Source: Rhodospirillales bacterium (GTDB lineage Bacteria > Pseudomonadota > Alphaproteobacteria > ATCC43930 > CGMCC-115725). From it: a stretch of 41,829 bases of DNA. The position numbers were made by a program, and so were the translations under genes. Positions 1 through 32,490 of the stretch are shown here, in pieces; the stretch's first letter is position 1, and each line of letters begins with the position of its first letter. The stretch covers positions 1 to 41,829 of the forward strand of contig CANJCB010000038.1 of the NCBI GenBank assembly GCA_947473305.1. The letters run 5' to 3'. Below the pieces are notes generated by a model. That model ran no database searches. It saw only the letters and a list, made by a program, of their open reading frames with translations, and had not been told where the DNA came from.

Positions 1-82
1 CATCCCGCGCCTACCCGAACTCGTCGGCAACCAAGCCTGACAAGCAGACAGGCCCAGGGTTTTGCCCCTGTTACCGCAAATG

Positions 83-235
83 CAAGCAACTCATTGATCA
101 CGCCGAGAAATACGCCAACTGGGTGGGGTCAAGTTTCGCGCGACAAATGACCCCCCTCAAATTCGCATGTTTGCCAACCGGATCAACGCGCTGAGAGACT
201 TCAGGGACGGGGTCATTGTTGGGCGCGATTTCACA
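83..235 (-). mobile_element. Partial copy A of a 189-bp inverted-repeat element
   Basis: Read on the minus strand, this stretch matches the copies at 6988-7176 and 11099-11287 almost base for base from the TGTGAAATCGC end at 235 down to about 83. There the match stops, so the far inverted repeat is missing. It lies in the opposite orientation to the other two copies. It carries no open reading frame of its own. The 82 bases to its left are not recognised. TG/CA ends and repeated TGACCCC motifs suggest a non-autonomous relative of an IS21-like element, but that assignment is inference. Confidence 0.8.
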
Positions 236-263
236 CCGAAAGCCTTGCGTACTGCTGGCAACG

Positions 264-2045
264 TCAGTGATGGGTCAGGGCCACCAGGCCACGCTTGCCA
301 CGATTGGCCCATTGCCCGATGAAGAACAATATGAGCGACAAGGTGATCATAACGACCGATACCGCTGCGACGGTCGGATCGATCTCCAGCATCACGCTGT
401 CCCACATCCGCTTGGGCAAGGTGAATACGCTGGTGCCGCTGAGAAACAACGCCATGATCACGTCATCGAAGGATGCCAGGAAGGCAAATAGGGCGGAGGA
501 AACCAGACTGGGTCGGATCATTACCAAGGTGGTTTTACGGAAGGCCAGGATCGGCCCGGCGCCTAAACTGCGGGCAGCTTTCTCTGGCATCAGGTCGACG
601 TTCCGCAGCGCGCTCAACACGATCGTGACGACGAGCGGAATAGCGATGATCATATGCGCCAATACGAGGCCCAGCCGCGTGCCGACCAACTTTAGCGGGG
701 CGAACTGAAAATAGAGCCCGACCGCGATGATGAGATGCGGCACCACAAGCGGCGACATCAAAAAGCTCAAGCAAAAATTGCTGCCGCGAAACTTTGCGCG
801 CGACAGGCCGATCGCGGCCAATGTCCCAACAGACGTAGCGGCTATCATGGTCGCAAGCGCCACTTGGAAGCTGGTGACGGTTGGTCCCATCCAGTCACGC
901 CGAGACAAATAGGTTTCGAACCAGCGCAGCGACAGGCCGCTCGGCGGGAATTCCAGATAGGGGGCCTTGCCCAGGCTCATCGGTAGCAAGATCAGCAGTG
1001 GGAAGAGCAGGAACACCAGCAGGATGCCAACATAAACGCGCAGGAAGGGGGCAAGATCGCGCTTCGGTCCGCGCCTTTCGATCTTCGCATCGGCCCGAGC
1101 CCAGCGTGTCGACCGGCGCGCCCACAGCGTGGCAAGCCATACGGCGATGCGTCCGAGCCAGGGCGCGTTCATCGCTTTGGCCTGTCCGGGGTCCCCTGCC
1201 GAGAAACCGAGAAGGTTGCCGAACACCATGACCAGCACGACTGTGAACATGAGCAATACGAGCGACATCGCCGCCGCCAAATTCCAATCGAGCGCAGAAT
1301 TGACCTGGCGCTCTATCAGCATGACGTAAGTGATCTCCTTGAGGCCACCCAGCAGGGCCGGGGTGATCAGGTAGCCAAGCGTTGGGATGAAGATAAGCAG
1401 CGCACCGCCCGCCACGCCTGGCAGACTGAGAGGAAAGAAGACGCCGAAAAAGGCGCGCATGGGACTGGCGCCGAGTGAGCACGCCGCATCTACCAGTCGG
1501 AGATCGAGCCGTGTCATTACGCTGTAAAGCGGAAAGACGAAAAAAGGCAAAAGCACATGGACGAAGCCGATAAGAACGGCAAAGCGAGTGTAGAGGAACT
1601 GCACCGGCTGATCGATCAGGCCGAGCCCACGCAGGACTTGGTTGAGCGCACCTTCCTGACCAAGAATGGTTATCCACGCGAAGGAGCGGACCAGCGCGCT
1701 TGTCCATAGGGGCAGCACGACGGCGAGAATGACGAAGCGCCGCCCGCGCTCCGACATATGGAGCATCGCATAGGCGATCGGATAGCCGATGACCACGCAA
1801 AGCATTGTAACCTGCGTGGTGATGAGGAAAGTCCGGGACATGACCGGCCCGAAAGCCGGATCCTCGAATACCTCGATGTAATATTTGAAGGACCAGTTCG
1901 GCGCATCGAAGCTTTGCCTGACCAAGTCCAGCATCGGATAGCCGTAAACCGGCAGCATCAAGGCGAGGGCTGGGAGAAGCAATAGGAAGGGTCGCGCCAA
2001 ACGCCCGCCGAAGAGCAGCTGGCGTGAGCGATTTTCTCCAGCCAT
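264..2045 (-). CDS. ABC transporter permease, two fused PotB/PotC-type permease domains
   Basis: This 593-residue inner-membrane protein carries two complete binding-protein-dependent permease domains in one chain. The N-terminal half resembles PotB (EAA loop around DAACSLGASPMRAFFGV). The C-terminal half resembles PotC (EAA loop around KAARSLGAGPILAFRKT). A charged linker at about residues 290-330 joins them. In most polyamine/spermidine-type importers these are separate subunits of about 280 residues each; fusions are known in the iron and polyamine branches. It should form the whole membrane channel with the ATPase encoded divergently at 2178 and the binding protein at 4500-5588. The substrate cannot be read from sequence; polyamine or amine-like is the family default. 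Confidence 0.9.
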   Translation of the reverse strand: MAGENRSRQLLFGGRLARPFLLLLPALALMLPVYGYPMLDLVRQSFDAPNWSFKYYIEVFEDPAFGPVMSRTFLITTQVTMLCVVIGYPIAYAMLHMSERGRRFVILAVVLPLWTSALVRSFAWITILGQEGALNQVLRGLGLIDQPVQFLYTRFAVLIGFVHVLLPFFVFPLYSVMTRLDLRLVDAACSLGASPMRAFFGVFFPLSLPGVAGGALLIFIPTLGYLITPALLGGLKEITYVMLIERQVNSALDWNLAAAMSLVLLMFTVVLVMVFGNLLGFSAGDPGQAKAMNAPWLGRIAVWLATLWARRSTRWARADAKIERRGPKRDLAPFLRVYVGILLVFLLFPLLILLPMSLGKAPYLEFPPSGLSLRWFETYLSRRDWMGPTVTSFQVALATMIAATSVGTLAAIGLSRAKFRGSNFCLSFLMSPLVVPHLIIAVGLYFQFAPLKLVGTRLGLVLAHMIIAIPLVVTIVLSALRNVDLMPEKAARSLGAGPILAFRKTTLVMIRPSLVSSALFAFLASFDDVIMALFLSGTSVFTLPKRMWDSVMLEIDPTVAAVSVVMITLSLILFFIGQWANRGKRGLVALTHH

Positions 2046-2177
2046 GCCCCCGCCTCTATGAAACTCTCCCGGAACCGAAACGATCTTCCGAAATCCCTAC
2101 TTAGTCAATGACATCAAGGGTGACAGGCCCCAACGTTCGGTACAGTATGGATCAACGGCGAGCATCGGATTTATGGG

Positions 2178-3281
<1,104 letters not shown>

Positions 3282-3368
3282 CGCCGAGGGCCAGTCAGAT
3301 TTGGCAACGCGGGGCCGAATTTTTTAATGTCCGCGATATCCAAACCCTCAGAACGATGCTCGGGTGGA

Positions 3369-4442
3369 TCACGGGTCGAGAGGGGCGTTCTCGATCACCC
3401 CAGGAACGTAGATCCCACCCCGCCGTCCACCGCCATAGGCCCGATAATGCCAATAGGACAGATCCTGGGCGTCCGGGGTTACCAGCCAAAGCCGGAGAAG
3501 ATGCCGTTTGCGCTCGACTTCGGGGTAATCCTCAAACGCATTTCGTCCGTGAATCACCGCGAGATTGTTCAGCAGCTGGATATCCCCGATCTGCAGCGAC
3601 ATCGGAAGATGAAAAGCCGGGTCACCGGCGATCCGATCGATGAGCGTCAGTGCCTCTTTTTGTTCATGGGTCAGCCTCGGCAACTCCGGGTAGCGTTCCG
3701 ACATCAGGATCGGCAGCCGATGGTACATCATGGCGGGAGCGTCGCCCGCCTTGTAGAAAACCGGGAGCTGGTAATAGGGCTTGGCGCCGGCCGGCACCTC
3801 GCCGCGGCGATCGGTCCAAAAGGGTTGATAGAGGACGCGCAGAAGATCGGGCCGGGTACTCAGAATTTCGTCGTGGATGGCCGCGCCGCTCGCGATGAAA
3901 CTTTGGCCCCCTGACTTCGCCGGGTGGAGGCAAAGAAGCCCTACGATGTCGCAGAAGTCGGAGTGAAAATCGAGATGCTCATTGGTTGCATAGCGCCGGA
4001 GGCTGTGCTGTTCCATGTCGAAGACATGGCCAAGGAGATGCCCTCGACCGTTTTGGCTGACGGGAAAGCCGAGATGAGTTCCGATACCCCAATAAGCAAT
4101 CGCCGCTTCGCGCGGCGAATAGCGCTCGATCGGCAGCCCTCTAAGTAAGACGAAACCGCGTCCCTGCAGCACCTCGAGCTTGGCGGCCGCGAGCGCCGGG
4201 CCGAGACGGGGCAGGGGAAAATCTTCCCGGCCGATTGCCATGATGTCGAGGCCTTGCCGGATTACCTGTGCGACGGCGGCCTCGATCTCGGCAATCTCTT
4301 CGGTGGAGAAAGAGCGGATCCAATCCGTCCTGTCGACGAGTTCCGCGCCCTTCCAATGGGACGCGCCACCGATCGGTTCGATAGGCGCATCGAACTCGCC
4401 GTCGATCCGCTCGGCTGCGCCGAGTTCGGTCTTTTGCGTCAT
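3369..4442 (-). CDS. TauD/TfdA-family Fe(II)/2-oxoglutarate dioxygenase
   Basis: This 357-residue protein is of the TauD/TfdA/gamma-butyrobetaine-hydroxylase type, which uses Fe(II), 2-oxoglutarate and O2 to hydroxylate or cleave a small substrate. The iron ligands are visible: HxD at His160-Ser-Asp162 (DFHSDFCD) and the distal His298 (AVIHGR). Arg314 or Arg317 in RKRHLLRLW is placed to bind 2-oxoglutarate. It is encoded between a transporter ATPase and a binding-protein gene, 57 bp downstream of the latter's stop, so it probably acts on the imported compound. It converges on the ATPase gene, 87 bp apart. The exact substrate is unknown. Confidence 0.88.
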   Translation of the reverse strand: MTQKTELGAAERIDGEFDAPIEPIGGASHWKGAELVDRTDWIRSFSTEEIAEIEAAVAQVIRQGLDIMAIGREDFPLPRLGPALAAAKLEVLQGRGFVLLRGLPIERYSPREAAIAYWGIGTHLGFPVSQNGRGHLLGHVFDMEQHSLRRYATNEHLDFHSDFCDIVGLLCLHPAKSGGQSFIASGAAIHDEILSTRPDLLRVLYQPFWTDRRGEVPAGAKPYYQLPVFYKAGDAPAMMYHRLPILMSERYPELPRLTHEQKEALTLIDRIAGDPAFHLPMSLQIGDIQLLNNLAVIHGRNAFEDYPEVERKRHLLRLWLVTPDAQDLSYWHYRAYGGGRRGGIYVPGVIENAPLDP

Positions 4443-4499
4443 GGTATAGCCTCTAGTTGTGTGCCGCCGGGCATTCCACCGCAGGCTGCTTCGGGCGAC

Positions 4500-5588
4500 T
4501 CAAGTCACCATCCATTTTCGCCACAGATCGGCGTTGAACTCGAGATTTGATTTTGTGCCGTTTTTCGCCGCCCACCATTCCGCATCCAGCACCACTTGCT
4601 TCTTGAGATTGTCCGGGAAGGATGGGTAGCGGTTTCGCTCGTTCTCCGGAATGAAGGCGAAGGCGTCGCGGTTGGTGGGGCCGCTCGGCTGAAGTTTGAC
4701 GAAGGCGGCTTGGCGGTCGGGTCGCAGCGCGAATTCGATAAGCTTCATCGCGCCGGCGGAATTGGGGCCGCCTTTCGGAACTGCCCAGGTCGTGTTGAAA
4801 AGAATCCCCTCGTTCCAGGTGAAGGCGATCGGCGCGCCCTGCTGGATCAGATCCTGGATGCGCGCGGCATTGGCGAGGCCGACGACGGCACTCCCATCCG
4901 TCAAGGCTTGCGGAATGGCTGCGGCGGTATTGATCCACTTGACAACATCCGGCCGAATCCGGCCGAGACTTTTGTAGGCCCGGTCGAAATCGATCGGATA
5001 GAGCTTGTCCTTTGGGACACCATCGGCCAGGAGCGCGGGTTCGATCGGATTGACCACGTAATCGCCCGCCGGAAGCATCCGTTTGCCCGGGAAACGGGCC
5101 ACGTCCCAGAGATCGGCCCAACGGTCAGGGTGCGGCGAGCCTGCCGGGAAAGCCTTGGTGCTATAGGCGATTACCGATGAGGCCCAAAGGCTCGCGATCG
5201 AAAATGGCTTCTGAAGGTTCTTGTCGATGCCCGCCAGGACCTTAGGATCGATTGCGGAATAGTCGATCTTTTCGAGAAGTCCCTGGCTCGACAGCACGAG
5301 CACATCCGTGGTGACCGCCGGCACGAGGTCCCATTCCATATTGCCGGCCTTGCCCATGACCTGGATCTTCGCGATCGTGAAGCCGGGCACATCGACCACC
5401 CGGATCCCGGTTTCCTTCTCGAACGGCTTGAAGTAGATCTCCCGTTGGGCATCCTGGTAGGCGCCGCCATAGGATGCCACCACCACCTGTCCCTTGTCCT
5501 GCGCTCGCGCTCGTCGGGGAAGTATTGTGGCCGCGAGACCGGTGATCGCCGTAGCGGATGCGTTCTCCAGGAAGTCTCTTCTACGCAT
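4500..5588 (-). CDS. ABC transporter substrate-binding protein, PotD/PotF-like, Tat-exported
   Basis: This is a periplasmic binding protein of about 362 residues, of the extracellular solute-binding group used by polyamine-type importers. I place the start at 5588 rather than the upstream ATG at 5612. The shorter form begins MRRRDFLENAS, a twin-arginine signal with a cleavage-like RRARA site, and GGAAGGA lies just upstream of this ATG. The mature chain contains VVASYGGAYQDAQREIYFKPF, typical of the family. It sits 57 bp downstream of the monooxygenase gene and upstream of the dioxygenase gene, so the three probably form one operon supplying the importer and its catabolic enzymes. Confidence 0.9.
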   Translation of the reverse strand: MRRRDFLENASATAITGLAATILPRRARAQDKGQVVVASYGGAYQDAQREIYFKPFEKETGIRVVDVPGFTIAKIQVMGKAGNMEWDLVPAVTTDVLVLSSQGLLEKIDYSAIDPKVLAGIDKNLQKPFSIASLWASSVIAYSTKAFPAGSPHPDRWADLWDVARFPGKRMLPAGDYVVNPIEPALLADGVPKDKLYPIDFDRAYKSLGRIRPDVVKWINTAAAIPQALTDGSAVVGLANAARIQDLIQQGAPIAFTWNEGILFNTTWAVPKGGPNSAGAMKLIEFALRPDRQAAFVKLQPSGPTNRDAFAFIPENERNRYPSFPDNLKKQVVLDAEWWAAKNGTKSNLEFNADLWRKWMVT

Positions 5589-5645
5589 GGTGATGTCCTT
5601 CCGTTGGATCATAGGGCTGGGTGTGCAGTGGACCGTCCGGTCAGT

Positions 5646-6749
5646 TCAAGGACTCGTCCCGGTAGGGATGTAGCGGGCGGTTCTCAGAGCCTCGTCGTCC
5701 CATTTGGTGCGGGGCCCCGACCCGACCCTGTTCTGGGCATGATCGATGGACGTATTCTGGGTATGCTCGGTCAGCGGGCGTTCCCGGCTTTCCCAAGCAG
5801 CAAGCGCCTCGCCGATTTCCGGATCCTGATCGAGCGCAACCGCCAGACTTAAGGCATTGGCCATGGCGGAGCCCGCCCCTTGACCCAGCGTGGGCGGCAT
5901 GGAATGCGCCGCGTCGCCCACGATCGCCACCCGGCCGACCGACCAGCGCGTGAGCTTCATCGCCTCATAGACGTCGAAGCGGCCCCGATCGCCGATGCGG
6001 CCGAGAATACCGGCGAGGAAGGGGAAGGCTTCCGAATAGACCTCGGAGCGAACGGGCAATGCGGTCGCCGCGAGGTCGCTCTTATGCGCTCCCAGCAGGA
6101 GGTAAACCTCGCGCTGGTTGCAGGGCACATACATCAAGCGATATCTGCCGCTCCAGAAATTGATTACATAGTCGCGGTCGACGGGAGTCAGATCATCTTC
6201 GCGACGATCGACGAGAAGCCGGATGACCCCTTGCTCGTATTGCTCTCGCCAAACCGGTTGGCCGAGCGAATCACGGATCTTCGAGCGCACGCCGTCCGCG
6301 CCGACCACCAGATCGGCTCGATGTTTTCGACCTTTCGCGGCCAGAAGAATACCCTCCGGCTCCGCGCCCAGGGCTTCGGAGCCGGTCTCGATATCGACAC
6401 CCAGCTTTTGGGCTTGCGTCAGCAAGGCCTGGAAGAGGTGCTGCCGCGTCATTGTGATCATCCGGGTTCCGCGATCCGGCCCGAATTTGATCGAATAATA
6501 GGTCTCGTTTCGCTCGTTCCGGCTTTGGTTCAACGGCGCCTCATGCGCACCTGTCACCGCGGCGTCATAGGCTCCCAGCGATTTCAGGATGCGAAGCCCG
6601 TTCTCCCAGATGAAAATTCCGGCCCCGAAAGCGCGCAGCTCCCGCTCCGCCTCGTGGATTCGCACGGTCCAGCCCCGCTGCCGCAACGCGATGGCAGCCG
6701 CCAACCCGGCGAAGCCCGCGCCGGCAATTTCCGCATGACGGCCTACCAT
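5646..6749 (-). CDS. FAD-dependent monooxygenase, UbiH/PHBH-like
   Basis: This 367-residue flavoprotein is of the aromatic-ring hydroxylase type (salicylate or hydroxybenzoate hydroxylase superfamily). The FAD-binding GxGxxG lies at residues 10-15 (GAGFAG). The middle DG motif is VVGADGVRSKIRD (about 148-160), and the second FAD motif is GDAAHSMPPTLGQG (about 278-291). Such enzymes use NAD(P)H and O2 to hydroxylate an activated ring or similar acceptor. It is the first gene of the minus-strand operon, followed by the binding protein and the dioxygenase, so it probably acts on the same imported compound. The substrate cannot be named from sequence. Confidence 0.88.
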   Translation of the reverse strand: MVGRHAEIAGAGFAGLAAAIALRQRGWTVRIHEAERELRAFGAGIFIWENGLRILKSLGAYDAAVTGAHEAPLNQSRNERNETYYSIKFGPDRGTRMITMTRQHLFQALLTQAQKLGVDIETGSEALGAEPEGILLAAKGRKHRADLVVGADGVRSKIRDSLGQPVWREQYEQGVIRLLVDRREDDLTPVDRDYVINFWSGRYRLMYVPCNQREVYLLLGAHKSDLAATALPVRSEVYSEAFPFLAGILGRIGDRGRFDVYEAMKLTRWSVGRVAIVGDAAHSMPPTLGQGAGSAMANALSLAVALDQDPEIGEALAAWESRERPLTEHTQNTSIDHAQNRVGSGPRTKWDDEALRTARYIPTGTSP

Positions 6750-6987
6750 CGATCACCTTTGTTATCGTCCCAACTTATCGAGCGGCATCCTCCGTATGAC
6801 GAGGAAACCGTATTGAAGTTAGCATTTCAACATGATGCTCAAAAGTCGGAATAAGATCCCCGAGAGGTTGTTAAACAGCAAGATTGCCCGCATGTTTGAG
6901 GATGCGGGTGCGGAGTGGACCGCCCTACCGACGTCGTGCCCCGTCGGATGCGGCTAGCGGCGCGCCCCAGATTGCATCTGGTTTGTC
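6750..6987. other. Intergenic upstream region of the monooxygenase operon
   Basis: I see no supported gene here. The stretch next to the monooxygenase start (about 6760-6850) is AT-richer than its surroundings and is the likely promoter region of the minus-strand operon. No clear -35/-10 pair or operator could be fixed. Confidence 0.4.
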
Positions 6988-7176
6988 TGTGAAATCGCGC
7001 CCAACAATGACCCCACCCCTGAAGTCTCTCAGTGCGTTGATCCGGTTGGTAAACATGCGAATTTGAGGGGGGCATCTGTCGCGCGAAACTTGACCCCACC
7101 CAGTTGGCGTATTTCTCGTCGTGATCAATGAGTTGCTTGGATTTTGGATGGGGTCACACTTGGAAGCGATTTCACA
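6988..7176 (+). mobile_element. Complete copy B of the 189-bp inverted-repeat element
   Basis: This is a full-length copy running from TGTGAAATCGCGCCCAACAA to GGAAGCGATTTCACA. The two ends form an imperfect inverted repeat: 22 of 27 positions agree, counting in from TGTGAAATCGC to TGACCCC. Its right end lies inside an IS1380-type transposase fragment. No target-site duplication is visible, and the left flank does not continue that transposase. It encodes nothing recognisable, so it would need a helper transposase. The repeated TGACCCC motifs near the ends are reminiscent of IS21-family termini (inference). Confidence 0.82.
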
Positions 7177-7411
7177 GCGGATCCTCCAGGCAGCCGGCCA
7201 GCCGCTCGCCGATCCGCAGCCGGCGCTCGACCTCGGCCAGCAACAGAACCCCGCCACCCGAGGACAGACGCCCACCATCAAAGCGGGCCACGACGGGCTT
7301 GCCACAGAGAGGTGACAGACCGGGCAGCGGGAGGGTAGGATCAACTGTGGCGGGCATGGCGCTCCGGAACGGCAGATTCGGCTTTAGCAATCGAATCTTG
7401 GGCGATTCCAA
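7172..7411 (-). pseudogene. IS1380-family transposase, N-terminal fragment
   Basis: About 78 residues match the start of IS1380-type DDE transposases: LPGLSPLCGKPVVARFDGG followed by RLSSGGGVLLLAEVERRL and ERLAGCLEDP. The frame then runs into the end of repeat copy B at 7176 and stops, so the catalytic part (normally some 350 more residues) is missing. The remnant of the element's outer end lies at 7432-7452. Confidence 0.8.
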
Positions 7412-7431
7412 CGAGTTACGCTATGCTCACC

Positions 7432-7452
7432 GACCTCCATGAATTATCCAGG
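7432..7452 (-). repeat. Terminal inverted repeat of the IS1380-type remnant
   Basis: On the minus strand the sequence begins CCTGGATAATTCATGG, the typical outer end of IS1380-family elements. It lies about 20 bp upstream of the transposase start. It marks the edge of the decayed element; the matching far end is absent from the window. Confidence 0.65.
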
Positions 7453-7552
7453 TTAGTTTAGGAAGTCTCAGTTGATGCTCGATGCGGTGCTGCGTATCGA
7501 TGGAATATATCACAGAGGGGGGCGGGGAATCAGAGAGCGACGTCATACGAAG

Positions 7553-7903
7553 TCACCTAGTATTAATAAGAATTTGCGCCCCTTTAGTTAAGATACCAGT
7601 ACAAACTGTACCCGAGACCAAGGTTCCGCTTGGACTAATGGCCGTGAATTTTGTTTGATACCAAGACCCAAAGCATCCAGAAAGCCAGCTAAAGCCACCC
7701 ACCTCAATAGGCTTGTATCCGGCGTCTATCAAAACGCGAGTGGCAGTTTCTGGGTCGCTGACAAAGCCTTTTGCCTCAGCAGGTTTAATAATTGCCTCGA
7801 CACCAATTCCCAGTGCGAGCATTGCGATTATCACGCCAGCCCTAATAGTGCAGACAAGAAGTAATCCGGCAAAAACACGGGTAAATATTTTTCTGAGTGA
7901 CAT
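7553..7903 (-). CDS. Small exported or membrane-anchored hypothetical protein
   Basis: This 116-residue protein has a hydrophobic N-terminal segment (about residues 10-33, VFAGLLLVCTIRAGVIIAML) that could be a signal peptide or anchor. The rest reads DPETATRVLIDAGYKPIEVGG, then a WLSGCFGSWYQTKFTA stretch and a SGTVCTGILTKGAQI ending. That pattern resembles small proteins of unknown function common in proteobacterial accessory and phage-derived regions, with two cysteines in the mature part. The gene is visibly AT-richer than the core genes, suggesting transfer. No function is proposed. Confidence 0.65.
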   Translation of the reverse strand: MSLRKIFTRVFAGLLLVCTIRAGVIIAMLALGIGVEAIIKPAEAKGFVSDPETATRVLIDAGYKPIEVGGFSWLSGCFGSWYQTKFTAISPSGTLVSGTVCTGILTKGAQILINTR

Positions 7904-8299
7904 GCAATTCCCGGTTCAAACGCCTAGCCACTGCGTGGTGACCACTCAACCGACATTCCCCAGATCAACGCCAAATACTGCGATCATGGTAGCCATCGTG
8001 GCCATTTCAGGCAAGCGTGAGACCAGTACGATGGTGACCTCGCCCTGATTCGACGCGAAGGCCGGTAAACTTGGCTTGCCGAACCAGCTGATGACGTCGG
8101 TTCCCTTGATCAAGACGCACCTCTCCCGTCGTCATTCGGTTTCTCCCCATCACGACCGGACCCGTCATGCCGGAGCAGGATCAGGCGGTGCCCATTCGCT
8201 CAGCCGATTTCTCATGGCCGATCTCCTGATCAGCCCAGGATGGCGTTGGGCGAGGGTCTACCTCAATTTAGCAGGAAGTTGCGCGACGCGGTGCCGCAG
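7904..8299. other. Non-coding stretch in the accessory region
   Basis: No gene, repeat or RNA is supported here. Short open frames occur but have no recognisable product and no ribosome site. The right end (from about 8240) is in frame with the ParB-like relic that follows but shows no similarity I recognise. Confidence 0.4.
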
Positions 8300-8545
8300 G
8301 CGAAAGCTAGCGCTTGGGAGATTGACGAAAACCTCATGCGATCCGAGCTAACGCCAGCGCAGGAGGCTGACTGCATGGCGAGGCGTAAGGCATTGTGGAA
8401 GGCAAAGAATAGTGGTGCAAGTTGCGCCACTATTCGAGATCGCCCCGGAATGCCTGCGGGCTTTGCGGCGGATACGGCCACCAAGACGGGACGCGACAAG
8501 AGCACCGTCAATCGCGCAGCCTCTCGCGGCGAGAAGATCGCCCCC
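8300..8545 (+). pseudogene. ParB-like partition protein relic (internal fragment)
   Basis: About 82 residues read WEIDENLMRSELTPAQEAD, then ARRKALW and TATKTGRDKSTVNRAASRGEKIAP. This is the region after the nuclease-like domain of plasmid and phage ParB/Spo0J-like proteins, where the helix-turn-helix lies. The conserved N-terminal domain and everything after GEKIAP are missing. The frame continues into sequence with no similarity, so this is a decayed internal fragment from a plasmid or prophage. Confidence 0.65.
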
Positions 8546-8640
8546 GGCGCGAACACCCGCGCTGGGTACTCGACACCGCGCCCATGGCGCCGCTCCCGTC
8601 ACCGCGCTACCATCCGGGCTCACGTTGGCGGGGGCCGACC

Positions 8641-8806
8641 ATGAGAACGATCTCGACGGTTGGGGCTATAGTCATTGCGGCGTTCCTAGGCGCGGCAACG
8701 CCAGTGCTTGCGGGTCCGTATGAGGATGGGCTGGCGGCCGCCAACAGCCAGGACTATGCGACGGCGCTCCGGCTCTGGAAGCCGCTCGCAGACCAGGGTC
8801 AGGCCG
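8641..8806 (+). pseudogene. Sel1-repeat-type exported protein, truncated after the first repeat
   Basis: The ATG at 8641 opens a signal peptide (IVIAAFLGAATPVLA). It is followed by GPYEDGLAAANSQDYATALRL and WKPLADQGQA, the usual start of alphaproteobacterial Sel1/TPR-like repeat proteins. Similarity ends at about 8806, where the sequence turns into the zinc-ribbon relic on the other strand, so only about 55 of an expected 200 or more residues remain. It is a broken gene joined to another fragment. Confidence 0.7.
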
Positions 8807-8917
8807 GCGCCTGCACCATGACCTTGCCGCCCAGCACGTCGCGCCGGGTACATCGGAGACGGCCATTAAGACCGGGCACCGGGTAGTCAGCGCCCAGCTT
8901 CGCGATGAGCGATGGCA
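8799..8917 (-). pseudogene. Zinc-ribbon-like small protein, C-terminal part
   Basis: The minus strand reads MPSLIAKLGADYPVPGLNG followed by RLRCTRRDVLGGKV. This resembles small alphaproteobacterial zinc-ribbon proteins (two CxxC pairs around a SLIAKLG-like helix). The second pair is damaged: RCTRRD where RCTRCG or similar is expected. The frame ends in the Sel1 fragment at 8799. The matching N-terminal part of such a gene lies at 11288-11403. Confidence 0.55.
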
Positions 8918-8988
8918 TTACTGCCCGAGCATAGCGCCGGCAGAAAGATGCTCCGGCGCGCGTCCGCTCTCGCCCCACCTCACCCCGG

Positions 8989-9016
8989 CCCTCTCCCCCC
9001 TGAAGGGCGGAGAGGG
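8989..9016 (-). terminator. CCCTCTCC...GGAGAGGG hairpin downstream of the dioxygenase
   Basis: This is a perfect 8-bp stem with a 12-base loop, 16 bp past the stop of the dioxygenase at 9032. It has the look of the widespread intergenic CCCTCTCCC-type palindromes. There is no run of T after it on the minus strand, so it may be a repeat or a processing hairpin rather than a strong intrinsic terminator. Confidence 0.45.
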
Positions 9017-9031
9017 GGGCCAGCTTATTTT

Positions 9032-10093
9032 CTACGACGCCTTCTTCTGCGGCTGGCCGTAGTACCACTTGCGCAAGTCGCCGTAGCTGATCGGCTGGTA
9101 GAGCGGGGGCCGGTCGGGGCCCTGGCAGGTGGGCAGCACCTCGACCACCGTGTCATCGCTCGGCCCGAAGAAGACCGGGATCGAATAGCGGTCGACCTCG
9201 TTGGTGTTGATCACCCGGTGCTTGGTCGAGAGGTATTCCTCGTTGCTCCATTGGACAAGCGAGTTGCCGGTGTTGACCAACAGGCAGCCGGGGCGGATGT
9301 CGACCTCGCGCCAATGGCCGGAGGGCATGCGCACGGCAAGGCCGGGCACGTCCTGCTGCGCCAGGAAAGTCATCATGGCGTTGTCGGTATGCGGGTTGAT
9401 CCCGTACTGTCGGTTGCCGATCTCCTTCTGGGGCGGATAGTGGAGCAGCGCCAACTGGAGGTGCCGGGTCTTGAACATGTCCTCGAAATAGTCGAGCGGC
9501 ATCTTGAGCGAGATGCACCAGAGCGGCAGGAAGCTCATGGCAAGCTTGTCGATGGCGGCATGATACTTGACCACCGTCTGGCGGAAGCCCGGAAGGTCCG
9601 GCCAGCGGCTCACCGAGTCGCCGGGCCCGATCTCGGGCTTGCCCGCGCGCTCGAAATCGGGCTCCCACTGCACCGAGAACTGGGCGTAGTAGCTGGGCTT
9701 GGTGCCGGTGATGATCGAGGTATTGGTCTGCGACCCATAGGTGCCCCGCGCGCCATAGCCGCGATATCCCGTTCGCATGCTGTCGTCGTCGCGGGCCTTG
9801 AGCGCTTCCTTCGCCTCCAGGGGCAGCGCGTGGAAGGCCTTGCTCTGGGCGAAGGTCGCATCGAGCAGCGCCTGGGGGATGCCGTGGTTCTTCAGGTAGA
9901 AGAAGCCCACGGTCATGGTGATCTCGCGCAGCTTCGCCGCCACTTCCTCGGCGCCGCCGGGGCGGCCGTCGAGATAGGGGGCGAAGTCGAGCGTCGGGAT
10001 CTCCTCAATCGAATCGGGGTGGTCGATCAGGGCGACCGTCGCCTCGTCTTCGCGCATCTCGCCGCGCGGGTCGCGGATCTTGCCGTCATCCAT
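9032..10093 (-). CDS. Isopenicillin-N-synthase-family Fe(II)/2-oxoglutarate-type oxygenase
   Basis: This 353-residue non-haem iron oxygenase has an N-terminal DIOX_N-like region (PTLDFAPYLDG, about 33-44, then GFFYLKNHGIP) and a double-stranded beta-helix core. Iron ligands are His235-Thr-Asp237 (NPHTDNAMM) and His292 (TKHRVINT). The co-substrate site is Arg302-Tyr-Ser304 (DRYS). AAGGAG lies 8 bp upstream of the ATG, so the start is well supported. It is downstream of, and 36 bp from, a binding-protein gene and is probably co-transcribed with it. Bacterial members act on amino acids, plant-hormone-like acids or antibiotics precursors; the substrate here is unknown. Confidence 0.9.
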   Translation of the reverse strand: MDDGKIRDPRGEMREDEATVALIDHPDSIEEIPTLDFAPYLDGRPGGAEEVAAKLREITMTVGFFYLKNHGIPQALLDATFAQSKAFHALPLEAKEALKARDDDSMRTGYRGYGARGTYGSQTNTSIITGTKPSYYAQFSVQWEPDFERAGKPEIGPGDSVSRWPDLPGFRQTVVKYHAAIDKLAMSFLPLWCISLKMPLDYFEDMFKTRHLQLALLHYPPQKEIGNRQYGINPHTDNAMMTFLAQQDVPGLAVRMPSGHWREVDIRPGCLLVNTGNSLVQWSNEEYLSTKHRVINTNEVDRYSIPVFFGPSDDTVVEVLPTCQGPDRPPLYQPISYGDLRKWYYGQPQKKAS

Positions 10094-10129
10094 CGGATGT
10101 CTCCTTCACTGGGAAGCGGGTGGCGCGCT

Positions 10130-11002
10130 TCAGAGGGCGCAGGCCTGCTCGCCGCTGATGTTCATGAACTTCTCATCATATTCGAAATCGTGCTGCTTGA
10201 GGATCTTCGCGACCTCGCCCGACTTCTTGAGCGCCCGGAACTCGGCCACGAAGGCGTCGCGCAGGTCCGTGTCGTCCAGGCGGAAGGCGCCGCCCGAGCC
10301 CCGGTTGGGATGGCCCGAATCGACGGGCGCGATCTCGATGCCGCCGCGCTGGCTCTTCAGGAGCTGCATGGTCTTGGCGTCGGAGGTGACGATCGGCACG
10401 CGCTTGGCTGTGAGCCCCTCGTAGAGCAGCGGCGTATCGCTGAACTGCGCGATCTCGACCTTGTCCTTCCGGCCGGCCGCCTCGATGCCCTGCTGGAGAT
10501 AGGGAAGCTCCGCGCTGCCCTTGGAGATGCCGATCAGGCTAAAGGCCGCGCCGAGCTCGGTGAAGCTCTTGGGCGGATCCTTGACGGTCCCCGGCAGGTA
10601 GCCGATCCACTGGGTCTCGTCCTTGCGGTAGAAGGGGTCGCAGAAGAGCACCTGCTTGCAGCGGTCGGGCGAGATGGTGAGGCTCGCGCCGATCATGTCC
10701 CAGCGACCGGCCTGGAGCCCGGGGACGAGCTCGCCATAGGCCGCGACGAAAGCCTCGATCTTGGGGATGCCCATGCGCTCGACCACGGCCCTGACGAGGG
10801 TGGGGGCGATGCCGATCAGGGTGCCGTCGGGGTTGAGCGTGCTCCAGGGCATGTTGTTGGCGATGCCGATCCGGATCGAGCCCTGCTGCTTCAGCTTGGC
10901 CAGAGCCCCCCGGTCCGCCGCCGCCGGCCGCACGATCGCCGCCGCGCCCGCCACCGCCAGAACCCCGCGCCTCGTCCACTGACGACCCCTGCCATGCCCC
11001 AT
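10130..11002 (-). CDS. Periplasmic amino-acid/ectoine-type solute-binding protein (SBP_bac_3)
   Basis: This 290-residue binding protein begins with a twin-arginine-like leader (RQWTRRGVLAVAGAAAIV). The core reads IRIGIANNMPWSTLNPDG, then LVRAVVERMGI and GELVPGLQAGRWDMIGASLTI. This resembles EhuB, the ectoine/hydroxyectoine binder of the family-3 amino-acid-binding group. No matching permease or ATPase gene lies nearby, so the importer is either elsewhere or lost. The neighbouring oxygenase suggests the ligand may also be its substrate, but that is inference. Confidence 0.85.
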   Translation of the reverse strand: MGHGRGRQWTRRGVLAVAGAAAIVRPAAADRGALAKLKQQGSIRIGIANNMPWSTLNPDGTLIGIAPTLVRAVVERMGIPKIEAFVAAYGELVPGLQAGRWDMIGASLTISPDRCKQVLFCDPFYRKDETQWIGYLPGTVKDPPKSFTELGAAFSLIGISKGSAELPYLQQGIEAAGRKDKVEIAQFSDTPLLYEGLTAKRVPIVTSDAKTMQLLKSQRGGIEIAPVDSGHPNRGSGGAFRLDDTDLRDAFVAEFRALKKSGEVAKILKQHDFEYDEKFMNISGEQACAL

Positions 11003-11098
11003 GATCGATTCCCCTGAAAAGAGCGTACTTTGCAGATTGCTGCCCTCATCCTAGCCGCATGCGCGGCCGGGGTCACGCGTCTCCTGGCATGATGGCGC
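11003..11098. other. Upstream region of the binding-protein/oxygenase pair
   Basis: This 96-bp stretch lies between the binding-protein start and repeat copy C. No gene is seen. Any promoter for the minus-strand pair must lie here or within the repeat; none is clear by eye. Confidence 0.35.
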
Positions 11099-11287
11099 TG
11101 TGAAATTGCGCCCAACAATGACTCCGCCCCTGAAGTCTCTCAGCGCATTGATCCGGTTGGCAAACATGCGAATTTGAAGGGGGTCATCTGTCGCGCGAAA
11201 CTTGACCCCACCAGTTGGCGTATTTCTCGGCGTGATCAATGAGTTGCTCGGATTTTGGGTGGAGTCACACTTGGAAGCGATTTCACA
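11099..11287 (+). mobile_element. Complete copy C of the 189-bp inverted-repeat element
   Basis: This copy has the same length and orientation as the one at 6988-7176, with scattered substitutions. The ends are TGTGAAATTGCGCCC and GAAGCGATTTCACA. It abuts a zinc-ribbon gene fragment exactly at its right end (the coding frame at 11288-11403 stops at the junction). The left flank does not continue that gene, and no target duplication is evident. Confidence 0.82.
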
Positions 11288-11403
11288 CCGAGCTTCGCGA
11301 TTAGCGACGGCATGTCCATGTCGGTCGCGTTGTTGCAGGCGAGGCAATGGGCGACGAGATAGCTGCCGTTGCGGTGGGTGCTGCCGAGGGTGGCCGCTGC
11401 CAT
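11288..11403 (-). pseudogene. Zinc-ribbon-like small protein, N-terminal part
   Basis: The ATG at 11401-11403 (minus strand) opens a 38-residue frame containing GSYLVAHCLACNNATDMDM and MPSLIAKLG, with the first CxxC at Cys20/Cys23. The last nine residues repeat the start of the fragment at 8799-8917. Together the two pieces would make a small two-CxxC zinc-ribbon protein. The frame is cut by repeat copy C at 11287. Confidence 0.6.
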
Positions 11404-11802
11404 TGACCTAGTACCTGCCGAAATTGAAAAGCACGCGACGGGTCATCCAGGGGATTTGCACCACGTAGGCGATGCTCCCGCCGAACCTGAAAGCTCCAAA
11501 GAGTTCGCCGACGCCTACTGCGCGCCGAAGCTGGGTGACGTGAAACTCCGGCACGGTGAAAAGCTCGTCGGTCTCTTTTCCTATAGCGCCCTTAGCGGAG
11601 CATTCAAAGATTGGGAGAGTTGTGGGGTTCTTAGCAATCCTGGACCTGGGGCGGGCATTTGTCGGCGGTGCTCCCAGTCGTAGGGCATCACAAGCGCTCA
11701 GAACACGAAATTGTGCAAGCTAAGTCCCCAGCAAGTCCCCAGGGATTTTTACGGCGCCTCGGACATCACGGTCAGCCGCGCGACGGGACCTAAGTCCTTG
11801 AA
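11404..11802. other. Unassigned stretch without a supported gene
   Basis: Open frames here show no family resemblance, ribosome site or coding bias that I trust. The only notable feature is the direct repeat AAGTCCCCAG...AAGTCCCCAG near 11721-11743, a pattern sometimes seen next to old integration sites. Nothing else supports an att site. Confidence 0.35.
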
Positions 11803-11833
11803 TGAAAACAGCCCCCGGAGTTATCCGGGGGCT
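11803..11833 (-). terminator. Intrinsic terminator ending the hairpin-rich RNA
   Basis: This is a 10-bp GC-rich stem (AGCCCCCGGA/TCCGGGGGCT) with a four-base loop, followed on the minus strand by GTTTTC. It would end transcripts coming from the trxB-lysR operon or from a separate small RNA promoter. Confidence 0.65.
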
Positions 11834-12062
11834 AGTTACAGGGAGGCTTCACGTCTGGGAGACGTAAGGGTCCTGAGACCCTCTTCCCGGATCCGAAAAT
11901 CCGGGAACTCGGCGCAACCGCCGAAAGCAGCGATTGCAGAACAGGTTGCGATGAACCATCGCACGATTAAAAAAGTGACTGATGGGTGCAGAATTGACCA
12001 ACCTTAATTTCGGTTGGCTCCTTTGCAAAAACTGCATCTCTACGCTCAATCCTTGAGCAGGA
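11803..12062 (-). ncRNA. Candidate structured small RNA: run of perfect hairpins, possibly AbcR-like
   Basis: Seven perfect hairpins occur in about 250 bp: 11810-11833 (10-bp stem), 11851-11865 (6), 11867-11882 (6), 11884-11907 (9), 11909-11924 (6), 11947-11963 (7) and 11998-12017 (6). A further one, GCTCAA/TTGAGC, is at 12044-12058. On the minus strand the last hairpin is followed by GTTTTC, so transcription probably runs leftward and ends there. The hairpin at 11851-11865 displays CTCCCA, the anti-ribosome-site motif known from alphaproteobacterial AbcR (alpha-r15) RNAs. The gene just upstream on the same strand is an LsrB/VtlR-type regulator, whose relatives control AbcR RNAs. The AbcR link is inference, and the region is longer than a single AbcR. 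Confidence 0.5.
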
Positions 12063-12133
12063 GCATAAAATTAGCCCATTAGGGGACGGTGGAAGTAGAA
12101 AAACGGAAAGGTCTATTTAACCATGACGCGAAA

Positions 12134-13027
12134 TCAGCCGTTTTTTGCCTCAGCGACTTTACGCAGGAGGAAGTCGCGGAAGACCGCGATGCGCTTGGAA
12201 GAGCGTAATTCCTCGGGATAGACGAAATAAGCCTCGACCTCGGGGCCGGGCAGATCGACCAATACGCGCACCAGGCCTTGAGCCTCATGGGTCATGTAAT
12301 CGGGCAGCGCCGCCAATCCCAGGCCGCTCTCCGCCGCCCGGAAGATCGCATAGACGTTGTTGACGGTCAGTATGGGGCGGCGCTCGTGACCGGCGTTGGA
12401 GCCCGCGTCGATGAGCCAATTGACGCTCGGTGTCGGCGGACGGGCATCGGTGCCGTAGATGATGATCCGGTGCTTGTCGAGATCCTCGGCCTTCTGCGGC
12501 ATCCCGTGCTTTTTCACATATTCGGCCGAGGCATAGATGTTGTAGCGCACGGTCATGAGATGGCGCTGCACCAGATCGGGCTGGCGGGGCGGCGACATGC
12601 GGATCGCCACATCGGCCTCGCGCATGGAGAGGTCGAGTTCGGCGTCGTCGACCACGAGGCTGATCTGGATTTCGGGATAATGGTCCAGGAACTCGCGGAT
12701 GCGGGGCGCCAGCCAGGCGCCGCCGAAGGCCACCGCCGCCGTCACCTTGAGCGGTCCTCGGGGGCGATCCTTCGATTCCTGCAGCATCGCCTCGGTCATG
12801 GCGAGCTTGGCGAACACCTCGCGGGCGGTGCGAAAGAGAAGGTCGCCCTGCTCGGTCAGGATCAGACCGCGCGCGTGCCGGTGGAAGAGCGGCACGCTGA
12901 GGCTTTCCTCCAGCGCGCTGATCTGCCGGCTGACCGCGGATTGGCTCAGGTTCAATGTCTCGCCGGCATGGGTAAAGCTGCCAGCCTCCGCCACGGCGTG
13001 GAAGACCCGCAGCTTATCCCAGTCCAT
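12134..13027 (-). CDS. LysR-family regulator, LsrB/VtlR-like
   Basis: This 297-residue LysR-type transcription factor begins MDWDKLRVFHAVAEAGSF, the hallmark N-terminus of the LsrB/VtlR group. The helix-turn-helix is at about residues 18-37 (LNLSQSAVSRQISALE) and the effector-binding domain spans about 90-295. I chose the ATG at 13027 because upstream in-frame codons add 45 low-complexity residues not found in the family. It lies 59 bp downstream of trxB, an arrangement conserved in many Alphaproteobacteria. Relatives control oxidative-stress, envelope and virulence genes and, in Brucella and Agrobacterium, AbcR small RNAs. The chain contains no cysteine, unlike redox-responsive LsrB. Confidence 0.88.
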   Translation of the reverse strand: MDWDKLRVFHAVAEAGSFTHAGETLNLSQSAVSRQISALEESLSVPLFHRHARGLILTEQGDLLFRTAREVFAKLAMTEAMLQESKDRPRGPLKVTAAVAFGGAWLAPRIREFLDHYPEIQISLVVDDAELDLSMREADVAIRMSPPRQPDLVQRHLMTVRYNIYASAEYVKKHGMPQKAEDLDKHRIIIYGTDARPPTPSVNWLIDAGSNAGHERRPILTVNNVYAIFRAAESGLGLAALPDYMTHEAQGLVRVLVDLPGPEVEAYFVYPEELRSSKRIAVFRDFLLRKVAEAKNG

Positions 13028-13086: not shown

Positions 13087-14055
13087 TTATTCGGCTGCTT
13101 TCAGCGACCCTGCCACCTCGTGCGCGGCAATGAACTTCTCGGCCTCCAGAGCCGCCATGCACCCCATGCCCGCCGCGGTCACCGCCTGGCGGAAAATCTT
13201 GTCCTTGACGTCGCCGGCCGCGAAGACGCCCGGGATCTCGGTCGCCGTCGAATCGGCGCGCGTCATGAGATAGCCCTCAGCATCGAGCGGCAATTGACCC
13301 TTGAAGATCTCTGTGACCGGCGTATGGCCGATGGCGATGAAGACGCCGTCGCAAGGCACCTGCTTGGTCTCGCCGGTCCGGGTGTCGCGCAACTTCACGC
13401 CGGTGACATGGGGCGGATTCTGCTCGCCGACGATCTCGTCGACCGTGGCGTTCCAGACGACCTCGATCTTCGGGTTCCGGAACAGCCGGTCCTGTAGGAT
13501 CTTCTCGGCGCGGAAACTGTCGCGGCGATGGACAACCGTCACCTTGGTCGCGTGGTTGGTGAGGTAGAGCGCTTCCTCGACCGCCGTATTGCCGCCGCCG
13601 ACCAGGACGACCTCCTTGCCGCGGAAGAAGAAGCCGTCGCAAGTGGCGCAAGCGGACACCCCGAAGCCGCGATAGGCGTCCTCGCTCGGCAACCCGAGCC
13701 AGCGCGCCTGAGCGCCTGTCGCGATGACGACCGTCTCGGCGACGAAGACATCGCCCGAGTCGGCTTTGCAGACGAAGGGACGGCGGGAGAAATCCACGGA
13801 GGTGATGATGTCGAAGACGGTCTTGGTCCCGACATGCTCCGCCTGCTTCTGCATCTGTTCCATGAGCCAGGGGCCCTGGATCACGTCGGAGAAGCCGGGG
13901 TAGTTTTCCACATCAGTCGTGATCGTGAGCTGGCCGCCGGGCTGAAGTCCCTGGACCAGGATCGGCTGGAGATTGGCGCGCGCCGCATAGATCGCGGCGG
14001 TATAGCCCGCAGGCCCCGCGCCGATGATGAGAACTTTCGTGTGGTGTTCGGTCAT
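13087..14055 (-). CDS. trxB: Thioredoxin-disulfide reductase
   Basis: This 322-residue flavoenzyme reduces thioredoxin with NADPH in the cytoplasm. The FAD-binding GxGxxG is at 12-17 (GAGPAG), the redox pair Cys136-Ala-Thr-Cys139 is in SACATCDG, and the NADPH motif is VGGGNTAVEEAL. The C-terminal FAD-binding motif is PGVFAAGDVKD. The length and all motifs match the low-molecular-weight bacterial type. It is the middle gene of a minus-strand operon, 20 bp after an unknown 634-residue protein gene and 59 bp before the LysR gene. Confidence 0.97.
   Translation of the reverse strand: MTEHHTKVLIIGAGPAGYTAAIYAARANLQPILVQGLQPGGQLTITTDVENYPGFSDVIQGPWLMEQMQKQAEHVGTKTVFDIITSVDFSRRPFVCKADSGDVFVAETVVIATGAQARWLGLPSEDAYRGFGVSACATCDGFFFRGKEVVLVGGGNTAVEEALYLTNHATKVTVVHRRDSFRAEKILQDRLFRNPKIEVVWNATVDEIVGEQNPPHVTGVKLRDTRTGETKQVPCDGVFIAIGHTPVTEIFKGQLPLDAEGYLMTRADSTATEIPGVFAAGDVKDKIFRQAVTAAGMGCMAALEAEKFIAAHEVAGSLKAAE

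Positions 14056-30516: not shown

Positions 30517-32490
<1,974 letters not shown>

Follow-up and report, generated by a model that had tools for sequence, protein, structure and literature searches.

The run of hairpins at 11803–12062 of the stretch of DNA analysed here (the window, 41,829 nucleotides of a contig from a Rhodospirillales bacterium) is, taken as a whole, quite probably best explained as the gene of a trans-acting small RNA together with its promoter region, including control by an LsrB-type regulator and use of the gene as an integration site. Comparison with relatives shows that the predicted RNA combines a highly conserved single-stranded CCUCCCUGU, a hairpin with a CCC loop and a terminator, and that it has been kept directly behind an LsrB/VtlR ortholog, often with trxB, in many alphaproteobacterial families. 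As a transcription unit the small RNA gene is putative, known from its sequence. The following features could be identified:

11804–11964, minus strand: putative small RNA gene, about 160 nt; the 3' end is the terminator, the 5' end is estimated from the distance to the operator
11947–11963, minus strand: 5' hairpin a, 7 bp, loop of 3
11909–11924, minus strand: hairpin b, 6 bp
11884–11907, minus strand: hairpin c, 9 bp
11867–11882, minus strand: hairpin H3, of the GGGTC-GACCC type
11851–11865, minus strand: hairpin H4, ACGTCT-CCC-AGACGT; the att identity begins here
11838–11850, minus strand: unpaired linker GAAGCCTCCCTGT, anti-ribosome-site stretch
11810–11833, minus strand: intrinsic terminator hairpin, 10 bp, loop of 4, followed by TTTT
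11807–11865, minus strand: 3' part, att core, duplicated (copy at G000:C13:1858–1917 of the own genome, beside an integrase)
about 11997–12018, no strand: promoter-side block GCCA...AAATT...TGG, conserved in a 20-locus alignment; presumed role in the promoter
11998–12017: hairpin of the earlier note within this block, counted among the eight hairpins of the run
12024–12036, no strand: predicted LsrB-type operator, TGCA-N5-TGCA, an exact match to a T-N11-A palindrome
12044–12058, no strand: hairpin located between the operator and lysR; the 20-locus alignment shows no conservation of it
12134–13027, minus strand: LysR-type regulator without cysteine, probable LsrB/VtlR ortholog (Pfam HTH_1 and LysR_substrate)
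13087–14055, minus strand: trxB, thioredoxin reductase (TIGR01292 above cut-off)

Structure of the hairpin run and its conservation

An earlier note on this DNA had described seven or eight perfect hairpins of different sequence between 11810 and 12058, and had held them to be neither chance nor a repeat array. Eight perfect hairpins, all with different stems, were counted at 11803–12062 (stem of at least 6 bp, 6–10 pairs, G-U permitted), and the description stands on both points. Dinucleotide shuffles of the same region (n = 200) gave a mean of 1.3 hairpins and a maximum of 5, and among sliding windows of 260 bases over the whole sequence (n = 320; mean 2.3, maximum 7) none reached eight. No direct repeat of at least 12 bases and no tandem array could be found inside the run; a short repeat of 11 bases in 1.9 copies lies outside it, at 11722–11742. 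The folding z-score of 11797–12070 is −5.9 on the minus strand and −6.3 on the plus strand, none of 200 shuffles being equally stable, and that of the predicted RNA itself is −6.4. A terminator-like hairpin with a T run (11834–11809) is found within the run on the minus strand only, in agreement with the intrinsic terminator that had been proposed for that strand. The CTCCCA said to be exposed in a hairpin is so only in part, as the loop of hairpin 11851–11865 consists of CCC only and the remaining letters are paired in the stem. A clearer single-stranded anti-ribosome-site stretch is the linker (11850–11838) directly behind this hairpin.

The small RNA gene is conserved in an alignment of 20 loci from the same family. 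Hairpin-a-like stems with other letters precede hairpin c in several relatives (GCGAT-ATCGC in L011, GCGAC-GTCGC in L020; the register is approximate), and hairpins of other sequence occupy the position of hairpin b in some (TCGACGG-CCGTCGA in L006, GGGTCA-TGACCC in L015). When the RNA is folded alone, an overlapping hairpin of 11 bp (11938–11913) is preferred over hairpin b. A stem of the TTCCC/TTTCC...GGAA/GGGAA type was present at hairpin c in all 25 family loci compared. H3 was missed by a simple stem search in 10 of 108 non-redundant copies linked to a LysR gene.

Strong covariation supports an RNA product. A covariance model of H3, H4 and the terminator (model R1), which matches the window at 11804–11883, was applied to 49 loci, and in the resulting 52 matches (51 distinct) all 21 pairs have changed on both sides: six of six in H3 (51 distinct sequences), six of six in H4 and, within the family, nine of nine in the terminator. 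In this alignment, which is fitted to the model, 96.9% of paired cells can pair, compared to 29–42% with the partner slid, and none of 500 shuffles comes close. R1 was built from an alignment (A2) with a hand-written structure, for which 19 of 25 sequences preselected for their stems were used and the other six were left out; the count over 52 matches includes rows free of this preselection, yet fitted to the model. With an effect of this size, there can be little doubt that selection has acted on the structure as RNA. Structural conservation downstream of the LysR gene is thus present in related genomes, and the comparison shows the hairpins of the putative minus-strand RNA to be under strong structural selection. 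RNAalifold, which had been suggested along with the earlier note for homologous loci, succeeded in part: on a plain MAFFT alignment (A1; 76 of 83 non-redundant loci, seven with unclear H3 having been excluded by eye) the invariant hairpin H4 alone was recovered, and the other stems were not, because the variable stems are misaligned in A1. The linker part AGCCTCCCTGT is invariant in all 76 rows of A1; as most rows come from matches listed by an exact-pattern scan, the invariance of the core among R1 rows is partly by construction.

The likely RNA start leaves two of the eight hairpins on its upstream side, one within the conserved promoter-side block, as would be expected if the run consisted of protein-binding dyads only and had no RNA product. 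The terminator with its T run and the covariation in H3, H4 and the terminator speak against this, and make it hardly credible as an account of the run.

The regulator and the control region

The earlier note was right to call the gene upstream of the run LsrB/VtlR-like. The closest solved structure to its product is 9HH1, LsrB of Agrobacterium tumefaciens (E 2.2e-95, compared to 2.4e-37 for the next structure; 9HH1 is named as LsrB structure in PMC11975290), and trxB adjoins the gene in front. We regard the protein as a probable LsrB/VtlR ortholog, being closest to LsrB among LysR structures, a judgement made on similarity rather than on a tree. The trxB-vtlR neighbourhood in Alphaproteobacteria and the position of AbcR behind vtlR in Agrobacterium were already known (PMC7486931), and according to a 2025 paper LsrB is confined to Rhizobiales (PMC11975290). 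A thiol switch within the regulator has been described for Agrobacterium LsrB (PMC11975290); as the LysR protein of the window contains no cysteine at all, such an internal switch cannot be the signal here. Cysteines are likewise absent from 94 of 121 full-length LysR proteins in the loci examined, and number three in three Rhizobiaceae proteins and one in four Rhodobacterales proteins within the aligned part.

Alignment of the 20 same-family loci revealed two conserved blocks upstream of the RNA, namely TGCAGTTTTTGCA (12036–12024) and the promoter-side block. Among 79 loci, the non-redundant subset of 111 listed loci with a short enough gap, 43 contain the palindrome TGCA-N5-TGCA with at most one mismatch, compared to 6.2 in shuffles, a few of these 43 matches lying elsewhere; a spacing of 4 is enriched as well (29 of the 79 versus 5.0). 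An exact copy of the published LsrB box, GCAT-N3-TG-N3-T, is present in 14 of these loci versus 0.9 in shuffles, and the box is also found before AbcR in Sinorhizobium meliloti, R. leguminosarum and Shinella. The box of the window at 12024–12036 matches the T-N11-A palindrome, not the published half-site. A second exact TGCA-N5-TGCA in the window, at 31307–31319, may be a further LsrB site.

The S. meliloti box spans −61 to −49, and the promoter loses more than 22-fold of its activity when the box is removed (PMC8844928). When the right half of the palindrome (from 12026) is placed at −61 by analogy, the RNA would start near 11964–11965, just before the hairpin at 11963–11947. LsrB would then bind the box and activate transcription from about this position. 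With such a start the hairpins at 11998–12017 and 12044–12058 lie outside the RNA, and they look like operator or promoter DNA. The reading of the whole 250 bp run as one RNA was dropped, since 11998–12058 is better read as operator plus promoter. Of the earlier expectation of an RNA longer than usual, the predicted length remains, about 160 nt compared to the 121 and 114 nt of AbcR (PMC8844928), but not an RNA of the whole run.

No sigma-70 consensus promoter could be found upstream of the RNA, where promoter scores are barely higher than in shuffles (8.1 versus 7.8). This could mean that the RNA is a processed 3' end of the lysR mRNA, cut by RNase E, in the way that SorX is derived from the 3' UTR of ompR-1 (PMC8625941, PMC6238624); the RNA also lies on the lysR strand, at a median of 202 bp behind the gene in the census described below. 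We consider such an origin unlikely, as the DNA that separates lysR from the RNA holds a conserved LsrB-type box and another conserved block, SorY and AbcR have promoters of their own (PMC6238624, PMC8844928), and in three genomes (G068, G178 and G188) the RNA is 1.8–3.4 kb away from lysR.

Distribution of the RNA and relation to AbcR and SorX

In a BLAST search of 39 genomes of the same family (own included), the 3' part was found in 26, mostly as about 11838–11890 or 11838–11908. An exact scan for the core of about 28–29 bases gave at least 119 stretches, with Azospirillum, Magnetospirillum, Reyranella, Kiloniella, Acidocella, Acidiphilium, Micavibrio and Caedibacter among the matches listed (80 titles). 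In 96 of these 119 loci, among the matches listed, a LysR gene lies upstream (in 94 within 1 kb), while 17 have no LysR gene upstream and six have too little sequence. A census of 192 alphaproteobacterial genomes (own included, at least 90% complete) found an R1 match in 90, the LysR gene in 119 and both in 83; the RNA lies downstream of LysR on the same strand within 12 kb in 71 genomes and within 1 kb in 65. Regulator and RNA are thus a conserved unit, as the earlier note had supposed, with both close together in about a third of the genomes sampled (65/192). The pairing is not absolute, given the 17 listed loci without LysR and the 48 of 119 LysR-bearing genomes without an R1 match downstream of that gene. 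No R1 match was found in the LysR loci L252 (a plasmid paralog of Azospirillum), L251 (Methylobacterium) and L258 (Microvirga). Separately, in the loci L050 and L054 (Caedibacter, Caedimonas), L083, L096, L139 and L146 the RNA core is kept and LysR was not found in the available upstream stretch. One locus (L155, from genome G180) carries three R1 matches in tandem behind LysR, in parallel with the tandem AbcR1/AbcR2.

The earlier note had proposed an AbcR-type RNA. What stands of this is a putative minus-strand RNA gene with a terminator and anti-ribosome-site motifs; the assignment to AbcR/ar15 by Infernal search with Rfam models failed. No Rfam family reached its threshold in a scan of the whole window or of 20 further loci, and ar15 (RF02345) gave no row for 11600–12200 even at E up to 10. 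The model itself is sound: in the three Rhizobiaceae records scanned out of six with LysR (S. meliloti, R. leguminosarum and Shinella; LysR 48–50% identical) it gave six matches of 97–127 bits, two in tandem behind each LsrB, an arrangement like that which the note had mentioned for abcR and this regulator in Agrobacterium. In the two annotated records (L249, L250), lrp and trxB are annotated before LysR. A search with RF02345 in the 192 class genomes gave no matches (0/3 for the surroundings in G142), but is uninformative because the controls matched nowhere either; ar15 is known from Rhizobiaceae and Brucellaceae (PMC3712013).

The window RNA and AbcR1/AbcR2 (PMC7486931, PMC8844928) share the trxB-lsrB-RNA arrangement, the strand, an LsrB-type box upstream, an intrinsic terminator, and one anti-ribosome-site motif in a hairpin loop with another in the linker. 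The motifs in the window are CCC (within CTCCCA) in the H4 loop and CCTCCC in the linker, in the place of the aSD1/aSD2 motifs of AbcR (PMC8844928) though with other letters. The window RNA differs in having more hairpins, a regulator without cysteines, the linker motif CCUCCCUGU instead of UUCCCCUC, and one full and one 3'-half copy in the genome rather than the two or more copies typical of ar15. Could it be a true AbcR whose sequence has diverged too far for the Rfam model to detect? The common location and logic would fit, as would the fact that clan CL00108 of Rfam unites ar15 with suhB, which matches weakly here. The chances of this appear low, in view of the absent ar15 row, the different linker motif, and the failure of R1 in turn to match, at E up to 10, any AbcR gene of S. 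meliloti, R. leguminosarum or Shinella. We therefore retain the reading as a small RNA gene with AbcR-like features outside ar15.

The SorX (RF02784) and SorY (RF02651) RNAs of Rhodobacter sphaeroides have a linker CCUCCCUGUU followed by a GC-rich terminator, and a linker of the ACCTCCCTG type is present behind LysR in Rhodobacterales too. SorX scored above its gathering score (49–54 bits) behind LysR in all four Rhodobacterales loci scanned out of seven records (two of Paracoccus, one each of Octadecabacter and Pseudorhodobacter), where R1 matched weakly (17–23 bits, E 0.0002–0.008). Behind LysR in L160 both models match, R1 with 32.6 bits and SorX with 52.3 (threshold 46.6), and in L193 the scores are 60.7 bits for R1, 44.9 for SorX and 37.7 for suhB; in L189 SorY matched with 62 bits, below the model threshold of 111. 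SorX-type RNAs thus lie behind the LysR ortholog in the three Rhodobacterales genera as well as in the R1-positive L160. For the window SorX gave no row, and in the 20 loci it scored at most 32.3 bits compared to the gathering score of 46.6. SorX of R. sphaeroides also differs in its derivation from an mRNA 3' UTR and in the hairpin before the linker. The highest Rfam row for the window is mmgR/suhB (RF00519; minus strand 11796–11870, 18.8 bits versus 41), which shares CCUCCCU before the terminator but stays below its gathering score of 41 in every scan, with at most 37.7 bits (L193) and 33.5 bits in L009. One locus behind LysR therefore carries three kinds of RNA with CCUCCC-type motifs, R1-type, ar15 and SorX-like, and common descent of the window RNA and the SorX-like RNAs is likely. 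AbcR and SorX have so far been treated as separate, order-specific RNAs; finding LsrB together with three types of RNA in one place makes it possible to test how AbcR regulation originated.

AbcR silences transporter mRNAs through anti-ribosome-site motifs (PMC8844928), to which the linker GAAGCCUCCCUGU and the H4 loop are similar; SorX and SorY also target transporter mRNAs (PMC8307010). By analogy with AbcR, the RNA would pair through CUCCC/CCUCCC with the ribosome-binding sites of target mRNAs and block their translation. The pattern CAGGGAGG-N3-9-ATG occurs at 16 sites in the genome, compared to six for the reversed pattern, and the control AGGGAGA-N3-9-ATG at 73 compared to seven, the control motif also pairing partly with H4. 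Nine of the 16 sites were scanned (seven with ORFs of at most 58 aa were dropped), as were 10 of the 14 control sites with ORFs of at least 100 aa among the first 20 taken. Parts of ABC transporters were encoded by four of the nine ORFs behind CAGGGAGG and by four of ten behind the control, in both sets three binding proteins and one permease, so that the comparison does not discriminate.

The RNA gene and tyrosine integrases

The 3' part of the RNA gene is duplicated in the own genome on contig C13 (59 of 60 alignment columns identical, one gap), beside a gene for a tyrosine integrase with PF00589 and PF13356 (L002:129–1331). A duplicated 3' end beside such an integrase was found both here and in L197 (39 bp exact). 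One contig of genome G128 carries both an R1-scoring copy and a half copy, separated by 10.5 kb, and has an integrase at its far end; the two copies are identical for 39 bases starting at ACGTCTCC and then diverge in their terminators, and the LysR gene sits on another contig. Altogether five integrase genes, 32–56% identical to each other, begin 2–206 bases from half copies and are directed away from them (in L123 the first integrase domain begins at residue 72, and the true start may be further off). The duplication of the 3' half next to P4-type integrases suggests that the gene is an integration site at which these enzymes would recombine. Beside each of the five integrases, the half copy begins to resemble the RNA at hairpin H4, which makes it probable that elements integrate at H4 and carry a 3' end of their own. 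The gene would survive by having its 3' end supplied by the integrating element. No integrase was found near the half copies L030, L070 (both with short flanks) and L196 in a search with one query integrase.

Half copies also occur in contigs of viral origin, with terminase and portal genes (L150), a terminase-like gene (L151) or a repressor gene (L154), and two further viral contigs (L152, and L153 with a portal gene) carry H3 as well, close to the contig end. These copies beside integrases and in phages might suggest that the hairpin cluster is mainly a recombination site or the remnant of a mobile-element end, its RNA-like features being secondary. This is very improbable: 96 of the 119 listed pattern-scan copies lie behind lysR, the base pairs covary in all three model helices, which an att site does not need, and, on visual inspection, neither H3 nor the upstream hairpins are present in the half copies next to integrases. 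A small RNA gene that also serves for integration remains the preferred reading.

The arrangement resembles that of tRNA and tmRNA integration sites, where the 3' end of an RNA gene is the insertion target of a tyrosine integrase; in islands of the Islander type the element restores the end, and the displaced fragment marks the other border (PMC4383910). The difference is that the target here would be a regulatory small-RNA gene, and ARAGORN found no tRNA or tmRNA in the window. Such a gene would be an addition to the integration sites of genomic islands, previously mostly tRNA and tmRNA genes. A literature search on the core sequence found no paper, and in the literature on small-RNA genes as integration sites none was recognised as describing the RNA gene of the window. 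As far as the literature searched goes, the following are new: the RNA family and its distribution, the occurrence of three types of RNA at a single locus, LsrB orthologs from outside Rhizobiales that lack cysteine, and the exploitation of the RNA gene by integrases.

A wider scenario can be offered tentatively, and we hold it to be somewhat less probable than its alternatives taken together. A small RNA behind LsrB may be ancestral to most Alphaproteobacteria, with AbcR and the SorX/SorY-like RNAs as its descendants, originally under a cysteine-free LsrB that sensed something other than thiol oxidation, thiol sensing having been gained later. Hairpin H4 would also be the crossover site for many diverged P4-type integrases, each integration swapping the terminator, and for this reason the terminator would be far more variable than the core of about 28–29 bases.

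Left of 11800 the window contains transport genes, TauD and a gene for an FAD enzyme, which would fit the cargo of an integrated element. G000:C13:1–1857 (L195) and window positions 1–11800 may together belong to one integrative element, bounded by the RNA gene here and by its duplicate on C13; both contigs end inside it. In the IMG/VR contigs L150 (position 2928), L151 (9936) and L154 (1443), H4 and a CCTCCCTGT linker are followed by a terminator-like sequence of their own, and these phage copies may be either attP sites or a phage-borne mimic of the host RNA.
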